A stretch of DNA of 63,290 bases from Terriglobia bacterium (GTDB lineage Bacteria > Acidobacteriota > Terriglobia > JAJPHL01): contig JAJPHL010000033.1 of the NCBI GenBank assembly GCA_021325275.1, forward strand, positions 1-63,290, written 5' to 3'. Numbering within the stretch: position 1 is the stretch's first letter; each line of letters starts with the position of its first letter. A program made the translations under genes and the position numbers. The notes beneath the pieces are model-generated. The model had not been told where the DNA came from. It ran no database searches and saw nothing but the letters and a program-made list of their open reading frames with translations. This document shows positions 58,848 through 63,268 of the stretch, in pieces.

Positions 58848-59129
58848 ATGGACGTGCAATTGACGACCGATCAGAAAGCGTTTGTTCGCGATGCCATCGA
58901 GAGTGGGCGGCTTCACCGCGAGGAAGACGCTGTTCGAGAGGCGCTATCCATGTGGGAGGATCGAGAGCGTTTACGGCACGAGACTCTCGCGGCGGTCGAC
59001 GAGGCCGAAAGGTCCTTGGCGCGGGGCGAGGGTCGTCCGATTACGCAAGAATCCATGAGGGAGCTCGCCGAGAGCGTGAAGCAAAGAGGGCGCGCACGCT
59101 TGGCGGCCGAGCGGCGCCCGTCGCGGTAA
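58848..59129 (+). CDS. ParD/CopG-like antitoxin
   Basis: This 93-aa protein starts MDVQLTTDQKAFVRDAIESGR, a ribbon-helix-helix strand and helix. REEDAVREALSMWEDRER follows, the second helix of ParD-type antitoxins. The charged C-terminal half (SVKQRGRARLAAERRP) would wrap the toxin. It should repress its own promoter. The toxin ATG follows directly after its TAA. The -10 box upstream supports the start. Confidence 0.88.
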   Translation: MDVQLTTDQKAFVRDAIESGRLHREEDAVREALSMWEDRERLRHETLAAVDEAERSLARGEGRPITQESMRELAESVKQRGRARLAAERRPSR

Positions 59130-59429
59130 ATGGGACATCTCCGCACACCTCAGGCGGATGCCGATCTCGACGAGATCTGGTATTACGTGGCGACAAGAAG
59201 CGGCAGCATCGAGATTGCTGATCGCTTGGTGGATTCCCTCACCGATCGTTTCTATCTGCTTGCGATGTATCCCCACATAGGACGCTCCCGCGATGAAGAC
59301 CTGCAGGTCGGTCTGCGCAGTTTCCCAGTCGGTGAGTACGTTATCGTCTACCGAATCCAGGATGGAGACATCTTCGTTCTCCGCGTTTTGCACGGTCGCC
59401 GTGACATTTCTGCATTCTTCGGCCGCTAA
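59130..59429 (+). CDS. ParE/RelE-superfamily toxin
   Basis: This 99-aa protein has the ParE pattern: LRTPQADADLDEIWYYVA, a helical hairpin, then YPHIGRSRDEDLQVGLRSFPVGEYVIVYRI and the last strand IFVLRVLHGRRD (given in parts). ParE toxins poison DNA gyrase. Conserved Arg and Tyr residues (RSFPVGEY, VYRIQDG) are present. It starts at the base after the antitoxin stop and ends 1 nt before the stop of a convergent gene. Confidence 0.9.
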   Translation: MGHLRTPQADADLDEIWYYVATRSGSIEIADRLVDSLTDRFYLLAMYPHIGRSRDEDLQVGLRSFPVGEYVIVYRIQDGDIFVLRVLHGRRDISAFFGR

Positions 59430-59430
59430 C

Positions 59431-59835
59431 CTACTCTACCGTGACCGTGCCCGATCCGGCGCGCGACGTTTTTCCGTCGCGCACCGTCATGATGTCGTAG
59501 GAATAGCGCTGCCCCGACTTCGCGGCGTCGTGGACCTTGCGCGGTCCCGCGGGTCCCTGGAACGGTTCCACGTTGAAGCTCGATTTATCGGCGGGCGTGT
59601 TCGGTGCGACGAAAGGGCTGCCGTAGTTCTTGTCGGTCCAAACGATCTTGTAGGTTACCGAGTCGTTGTTCTGGAAATAAACCTGGTCGGTCTTGCGGCT
59701 CGCGATGTCGAGATTCGACGGCGTGGCCCGGCCGCTCTTGATTTGCACCATGAGGCGCGCGCCCGGCGGCGCGGCGACAACTGCTAGCGTGAACAACAAA
59801 GTAAGCGCAGCAAGAGAGCGATAGGAAATACGCAT
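59431..59835 (-). CDS. Small secreted protein, unknown
   Basis: This 134-aa protein has a signal peptide (MRISYRSLAALTLLFTLAVV). The body is beta-rich (YFQNNDSVTYKIVWTDKNYG, KVHDAAKSGQRYSYDIMT, SRAGSGTVTVE) and looks like a small Ig-like or cupredoxin-shaped sandwich. Cysteines and obvious metal ligands are missing. GGAGG lies 10 nt before the ATG. No family is recognised. It is convergent with the ParE gene, with only 1 nt between the stop codons. Confidence 0.7.
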   Translation of the reverse strand: MRISYRSLAALTLLFTLAVVAAPPGARLMVQIKSGRATPSNLDIASRKTDQVYFQNNDSVTYKIVWTDKNYGSPFVAPNTPADKSSFNVEPFQGPAGPRKVHDAAKSGQRYSYDIMTVRDGKTSRAGSGTVTVE

Positions 59836-60338: not shown

Positions 60339-60710
60339 TCAAAGCTTGCCCCAGCAGTCCATGAGTTTTGCAGCGGCGGCCGCTTGGCACCCATCGAACG
60401 CCAAAATTGCGTTGTCCAGCGCGAGATCGTAGTCGTCAAAACACTTCGTGAAATCTTTTTTCTTGCTGGTCCGCAAGCATTCGATGAAAGCGTCATCCGC
60501 ATCGCCGACAGCCTGTGAGTATGTGTTTTCGCACTTCGCCAGGGCATTCACGTACTCCTCCAGGCAGTCAAAAAAATCATCGGACACTTCGGCCTTGGCC
60601 GGTGCATTGACCTGCGCCAGAGCGAGCATCATGCCCGCGCGACGCAGTTTGCCGTGTCGCGCGACACTCCGTGCCAAACCCTTCGATAGATCTTCAAATC
60701 GGTGCGCCAT
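60339..60710 (-). CDS. Small six-cysteine helical-repeat protein, unknown
   Basis: This 123-aa protein is not recognised. The N-terminus (RFEDLSKGLARSVARHGKLRR, then AGMMLALAQ) recalls the DLAKAL...RRxALRRLG leaders found before export signals in some bacteria, but it lacks a normal Tat box. Six cysteines at 49, 60, 78, 90, 108 and 119 give spacings 11-18-12-18-11, that is three repeats of ~30 residues, each with C-x10/11-C. The repeats look alpha-helical (DDFFDCLEEYVNALAKCE, DDAFIECLRTS). AAGGAG precedes the ATG at 60710. It is divergent from another unknown gene. Confidence 0.75.
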   Translation of the reverse strand: MAHRFEDLSKGLARSVARHGKLRRAGMMLALAQVNAPAKAEVSDDFFDCLEEYVNALAKCENTYSQAVGDADDAFIECLRTSKKKDFTKCFDDYDLALDNAILAFDGCQAAAAAKLMDCWGKL

Positions 60711-60863: not shown

Positions 60864-61187
60864 ATGACGCACAATGAACAGCGCAAGCATGTGGAACTCG
60901 TCCCGGTGGCCGGAGCGATTCAGTTCGGTTCGGTCGAGGGCAAGTGCGGAGCGAAAGCGAACCTCTGGAATTCGAACCAGCCGGTACTCGTGATCGTAAT
61001 CATCATCAACGTCGGGATCTGCAGCCTCGACGTTTTAGTGAACGGCGTGCCGACACGCCAAATTCCATCGCGGGCCCGCCGTCCGGAAATCATAGTCGCG
61101 CCGGGCGCCACCACGATCGACGTGGATTGCATCATGAACGTCAAAGACGGCGACTGCGACTATTTCTTTTTCTTGATTCCTCTTTGA
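60864..61187 (+). CDS. Small hypothetical protein
   Basis: This 107-aa protein is not recognised. It has a charged N-terminus (MTHNEQRKHVELV), a very hydrophobic stretch near residues 40-55 (PVLVIVIIINVGICSLDV), and alternating strands (PEIIVAPGATTIDVDC). It looks beta-rich rather than truly transmembrane. Three or four cysteines are spread through it. GGGGAA lies before the ATG at 60864. It is divergent from the six-cysteine gene, with a ~150-nt shared promoter region. The stop is 10 nt before the convergent permease stop. Confidence 0.6.
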   Translation: MTHNEQRKHVELVPVAGAIQFGSVEGKCGAKANLWNSNQPVLVIVIIINVGICSLDVLVNGVPTRQIPSRARRPEIIVAPGATTIDVDCIMNVKDGDCDYFFFLIPL

Positions 61188-62815: not shown

Positions 62816-62859
62816 GAAACGTGCGGGTCGAAAACCTGCAAGTCGAAAACGTGCGGGCT
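62816..62859. repeat. Three 14-15-nt tandem units
   Basis: Three imperfect copies of gaaaacgtgcgggtc (gaaacgtgcgggtc, gaaaacctgcaagtc, gaaaacgtgcgggct) lie end to end and reach the stop codon of the PEGA-domain gene. It is another short-word array, with a 15-nt unit. Confidence 0.7.
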
Positions 62860-63268
62860 AAAGAGCCGGGTGCAAGTGGACCGTCTTGCCTAGCGCCACG
62901 TAAACGGATTCGTTAAATGCCGTCCGCTCGCCCTCGCGGATCTGTACATTGTAGCTTCCGGGGCGCAGATGCATCGTCTTGTTGTCATGCGTAGTGCCGG
63001 CATAGGACCCATTGATGAAGACTTGCGCGTCCTTCACCTTGGTATCGATCTTCACTTCGCCGGAATTCGGGTAGTAGCCGTAGCCGTATCCGTATCCGTA
63101 GGCAGGACCCCAATAAGGTCCCCAGTAAGGACCCCAGCCATAACCCCAGCCGGGACCGAAACCGCCGCCCACGAACACTCGAACGTGGCCGCGCTGCGCA
63201 CTCGCGGCCGGTACCACCGTCAAAACCGTGGCCAGTGCCAAGCCAAGAATCAGAAGTCCTCTTTTCAT
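62858..63268 (-). CDS. Secreted PEGA-domain protein
   Basis: This 136-aa protein has a signal peptide (MKRGLLILGLALATVLTVVP, cut after ASA). A Gly/Tyr/Trp/Pro-rich repeat follows (WGYGWGPYWGPYWGP, then YGYGYGYGYY). The C-terminal PEGA-type beta domain starts at about residue 70 (GEVKIDTKVKDAQVFINGSY, ending with TVHLHPAL). PEGA domains sit on cell-surface or kinase-attached proteins and often bind carbohydrate or protein. The low-complexity part suggests a surface role. GGAGG lies before the ATG. Confidence 0.88.
   Translation of the reverse strand: MKRGLLILGLALATVLTVVPAASAQRGHVRVFVGGGFGPGWGYGWGPYWGPYWGPAYGYGYGYGYYPNSGEVKIDTKVKDAQVFINGSYAGTTHDNKTMHLRPGSYNVQIREGERTAFNESVYVALGKTVHLHPAL

Follow-up and report, generated by a model that had tools for sequence, protein, structure and literature searches.

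The window, that is, the whole stretch of 63,290 nucleotides analysed here from a Terriglobia bacterium, contains a small gene, P0001, whose product carries six regularly spaced cysteines, and this raises the question of what kind of protein such a regularity describes. Helical hairpins with nested disulfides are already known from plants, as defence peptides, and from mitochondria, as proteins of the intermembrane space. Plant alpha-hairpinins are antiparallel helix-loop-helix peptides with two or three disulfides and a palindromic cysteine spacing, occurring in a 4C form, CX3C-X4-20-CX3C, and a 6C form, CX3CX3C-X4-20-CX3CX3C (PMC11591084). CHCH or twin CX9C proteins form a helical hairpin in which two CX9-10C motifs are joined by two disulfides (PMC8773535). 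A search of the literature for a bacterial counterpart of the nested-disulfide hairpin found none.

Results

The reading frame that an earlier inspection of the letters (hereafter the sequence-only reading) had assigned to P0001 was confirmed, as shown in Table 1. Its product is strongly acidic and ends in CWGKL. The leader had been called odd and had been taken to suggest export. Our analysis revealed that it reads MAHRFEDLSKGLARSVARHGKLRRAGMMLALAQVNAPAKA, running from a basic n-region through a weakly hydrophobic stretch, AGMMLALAQV, to NAPAKA just ahead of the mature part, which is a plausible cleavage site. None of the Tat models matched it, and AlphaFold2 confidence was low across residues 1-40. 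Read from the sequence, the leader is weak and atypical as a signal peptide, whereas the signals of the relatives described below are clear. The suggestion of export is supported by the signal peptides found in all of these relatives, and we infer export for P0001 itself. Around P0001 and its divergent neighbour P0002, no promoter- or terminator-like sites were found, a result that is little informative for this phylum.

Table 1. Positions of P0001, of its parts and of other features in the window
Feature	Positions	Strand	Remarks
P0001 gene	60339..60710	minus	123 aa; AAAGGAG 5' of ATG; coding-like codon-position G+C
P0001 residues 1-40, leader (putative export signal)	60591..60710	minus	read from sequence
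P0001 residues 41-123, mature domain, predicted antiparallel helical hairpin	60342..60590	minus	AlphaFold2
P0001 proposed cysteine ladder C49-C119, C60-C108, C78-C90	60354..60566	minus	geometry; paired presence or absence of rungs in relatives
P0002, divergent neighbour	60864..61187	plus	107 aa, 4 Cys; unrelated orphan adjacent to P0001
Fluoride riboswitch aptamer RF01734	20208-20286	plus	45.4 bits (gathering score 34)
ParD-like antitoxin (weak match), directly followed by ParE-family toxin gene	58848-59429	plus	
Small, apparently secreted protein	59431-59835	minus	no significant family match
PEGA-domain protein, apparently secreted	62858-63268	minus	G/Y/W-rich stretch

The six cysteines, at residues 49, 60, 78, 90, 108 and 119, show exactly the 11-18-12-18-11 spacing reported before. 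Each of the nested pairs 49/119, 60/108 and 78/90 sums to 168, the mark of an antiparallel hairpin with its centre near residue 84. For six cysteines placed randomly in 82 residues, a perfectly palindromic spacing has p = 0.0012. Eleven residues make 3.06 helix turns and 18 residues make 5.0; the three cysteines of each predicted helix lie on one face, and the probability of both helices being so coherent is about 0.0001. When P0001 was modelled alone, AlphaFold2 placed helices at residues 44-81 and 84-122, the ten-residue blocks of the domain having pLDDT values of about 75-97. With the 16 relatives included, the same hairpin was obtained at a mean pLDDT of 96.4 and a pTM of 0.81. The mature part is predicted to be a single antiparallel hairpin, its helices about 38 residues long, with three nested staples. 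Where the sequence-only reading had seen three C-x10/11-C helical units and possible disulfide-stapled helical hairpins, the two models support the stapled hairpin, with disulfides proposed from the geometry, and correct the three units to one hairpin. Fold searches with this hairpin returned generic helical hairpins, such as de novo designs and ATP-synthase c subunits, at Z of about 9-11, which reflects only a common helical arrangement.

The regularity had also been described as three repeats of about 30 residues, and these were not confirmed. The best internal offset, 30, gave 9 identities in 52 positions; p was 0.54 when every offset between 15 and 44 was considered, and 0.09 when the cysteines kept their places. 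An internal repeat was rejected, since away from the cysteines it is no better than chance. What looked like a repeat is the cysteine ladder together with a heptad-like C-Y-A-A-A-C stripe.

Searches with P0001 as a single sequence gave nothing convincing in its own genome, in its order (2 genomes), in its class (399 genomes, where the top matches were inspected singly and dismissed), or in the genome_contigs, plasmids and phages sets. No match was obtained by sequence searches of the PDB, and DNA patterns with three or six cysteines gave matches swamped by chance and low-complexity sequence. The earlier statement that no known family came to mind was borne out in Pfam and NCBIfam, where no family fits P0001. 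The top Pfam match, the plant PMEI domain PF04043 (helical), was at chance level, scoring 14 bits where the cut-off is 29, and the CHCH family fell short with 10.7 bits against 27.2.

When the phylum was searched with P0001 (396 genomes), a weak match was obtained, L076, with E = 0.047 per genome, which taken alone would be chance level. L076 is small, carries a signal peptide and has the cysteine spacing 4-11-18-13-18-11-4, and as a query in its own class it gave strong matches, with E values down to about 1e-44 outside its own genome. The likely relatives of P0001 number 16 and are encoded by 8 genomes, some of which have two or three copies; all 8 belong to a single taxonomic family (f18) of a different acidobacterial class. 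The protein family so formed (L072/L100, L076, L086-L092, L095-L099, L101 and L102) is not among the entries of Pfam or NCBIfam. Fifteen of the 16, one of them with an extra cysteine, have the spacing 4-11-18-(12 to 14)-18-11-4, in which the turn is the sole variable part, the central cysteines standing 12-14 positions apart. A hydrophobic N-terminal signal peptide, read by eye, is present in every one of them, and all sixteen look exported. They are small, mostly acidic, and predicted to form a hairpin. In the family alignment, a QxSPSAP-type tail is conserved past the last cysteine in most relatives.

The one exception to the common spacing, L098 (4-29-14-29-4), lacks only the third and sixth cysteines, which are one nested pair. 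P0001 in turn lacks only the first and eighth, the outer rung, and has D and L in those columns. A half-lost rung was seen in none of the 17 sequences (16 relatives and P0001). That rungs are absent as pairs, in L098 and in P0001, is the best evidence for nested disulfides, although it rests on two independent losses.

We further searched genome_contigs with an eight-cysteine DNA pattern, which samples only a fraction of the possible family members; it found 92 stretches, 80 of which were made into loci, and after removal of cysteine-crowded proteins two were left, both of them known relatives. A profile search of the class of P0001 (249 genomes) found no other genome with a convincing match; the matches L105-L108 were dismissed, not being open, cysteine-patterned genes. 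By single-sequence and profile searches alike, no second case was found in the class of P0001.

Scored against a profile from which it had been left out, P0001 reached 29.3 bits, and 1000 shuffles of its sequence with the cysteines fixed scored at most 19.0. When shuffling kept both the cysteines and the hydrophobic pattern, 1 in 1000 reached the score of P0001; when six residue classes were kept in place, 83% did. True members of the eight-cysteine family, scored by leaving each one out, reached 51-112 bits versus 29 for P0001. As the residue-class shuffles equal P0001 and the members score higher, the similarity is one of cysteine spacing and amphipathic pattern. P0001 and the family have in common the inner spacing 11-18-(12 to 14)-18-11, the length of the turn, the predicted hairpin, a small size and, for most members, an acidic character. 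In contrast, the outer rung (Cx3C), a signal peptide that is clear and the tail of QxSPSAP type, the last of these usual though not universal, belong to the family, and P0001 has none of the three. Because the outer rung is absent, we call P0001 a likely divergent relative and not a full member of the eight-cysteine family.

Homology drawn from cysteine spacing and amphipathic pattern leaves room for convergence, since spacings of 11 and 18 are compatible with a helix. P0001 and the family could have arrived independently at the same nested-disulfide hairpin, and the matching 11-18-n-18-11 would then be a matter of helix geometry, as may be argued from the residue-class shuffles that score level with P0001, from its solitary occurrence in its class, and from the small number of helix-compatible spacings that exist. 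We regard this as fairly unlikely, though it is the rival to be taken most seriously: both inter-rung spacings and the turn length agree between P0001 and its relatives, and, as a rough yardstick, both spacings would coincide by chance in about 0.7% of cases if drawn evenly from some 12 helix-compatible ones. Moreover, the arrangement is rare, without another convincing profile match in the 249 genomes of the class. On balance, common descent of P0001 and the eight-cysteine family is more likely than not. The most likely reading is that P0001 belongs, as a divergent member with three rungs, to an acidobacterial family in which most of the other proteins have four.

The divergent neighbour P0002 had been described as another unknown small gene, and this description holds: it has no match in Pfam or NCBIfam, and no relative in 389 genomes of the class, where one weak match lay within an unrelated long frame. 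The pair had further been put forward as a possible undescribed small system, whose homologues should keep both the cysteine spacing and the partner gene. The spacing was indeed kept; a counterpart of P0002 was absent from all 14 of the relatives' loci examined, so that a two-gene system is unsupported. Among the relatives' loci, L206 (G696:C1 1547202-1548159) has two tandem eight-cysteine hairpin genes, apparently from a local duplication. In L201, L203 and L207 the hairpin gene and a long gene that has TSP_3 repeats, or resembles one that does, diverge from each other, and these three loci and L202 have an HDOD-type gene or similar neighbour in common.

Discussion

Our results suggest that P0001 is probably a small extracytoplasmic hairpin with three nested disulfides, likely a divergent relative of the eight-cysteine family, for which a role as a binding module may be proposed. 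Under this proposal, P0001 would be exported by means of its weak signal peptide, and its cysteines would be oxidised outside the cytoplasm to give a disulfide ladder. The pairs C49-C119, C60-C108 and C78-C90 would then zip the hairpin shut, yielding a rigid, acidic (net charge -10) and protease-resistant rod. Such a rod might serve to bind other molecules, a secreted peptidase or an envelope protein being possible targets, and a hyperstable binding module would be the most economical role for it. A hint of a peptidase-related role may be seen at three of the relatives' loci: in L210 the hairpin gene has a matrixin (M10) gene 78 bp upstream of it on the same strand, and the relatives in L214 and L212 have a zincin-domain gene and a subtilase gene beside them, respectively.

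These secreted peptidases would also suit a defence peptide or peptidase inhibitor resembling the alpha-hairpinins, a group that has trypsin inhibitors, and also a six-cysteine form, among its members (PMC11591084). P0001 shares with them a helix-turn-helix, antiparallel by prediction, a palindromic arrangement of cysteines and, as proposed here, nested disulfides. The cysteine spacing differs, however: alpha-hairpinins are short, with rungs 4 residues apart, whereas in P0001 the rungs stand 11 and 18 residues apart on helices of about 38 residues, and the CX3C-Xn-CX3C motif is absent from its 11-18-12-18-11 pattern. P0001 is also strongly acidic, unlike cationic membrane-active peptides, and among the neighbours scanned no peptidase gene adjoins it. 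We consider such an identity unlikely. The mitochondrial CHCH proteins COX17, MIA40 and COA6 differ as well, being eukaryotic with two rungs and CX9C motifs, whereas P0001 has three cysteines per helix at distances of 11 and 18.

Metal binding had been raised as the other possibility for the cysteines. In this case their thiols would stay free and coordinate a soft metal such as Cu(I) or Zn, either in a single chain or in a dimeric four-helix bundle, like copper chaperones or Csp-type storage proteins. That each helix has its cysteines along one face and that P0001 is acidic are consistent with such a bundle. Cysteine pairs normally oxidise outside the cytoplasm, however, and it is there that the relatives are exported. 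The pairwise loss of rungs is what would be expected of disulfides; moreover, the cysteines are not clustered but 11-18 residues apart along the helix, and no metal-related gene occurs among the neighbours of P0001 that were scanned. A thiol bundle is unlikely on this evidence. Equally improbable is a cytosolic helical hairpin with a fortuitous cysteine pattern, which would fit the weak hydrophobic core of the leader and its lack of a Tat match, but neither the palindromic, face-aligned cysteines of P0001 nor the export of its relatives.

Returning to the exported, disulfide-laddered hairpin, we tentatively suggest, with rather less than even confidence, that P0001 and its relatives represent an undescribed bacterial family of such proteins with three or four rungs, in which rungs are gained or lost whole and which may serve as hyperstable binding modules, perhaps as regulators of secreted peptidases. 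Bacterial hairpins with as many as four rungs, including natural variants that are exactly one rung short, would offer a ready means of testing what a ladder of disulfides contributes to the stability of helices and how such ladders are put in order by oxidation pathways. They would also supply a small scaffold of very high stability, and would allow genes that lack a curated family to be named.
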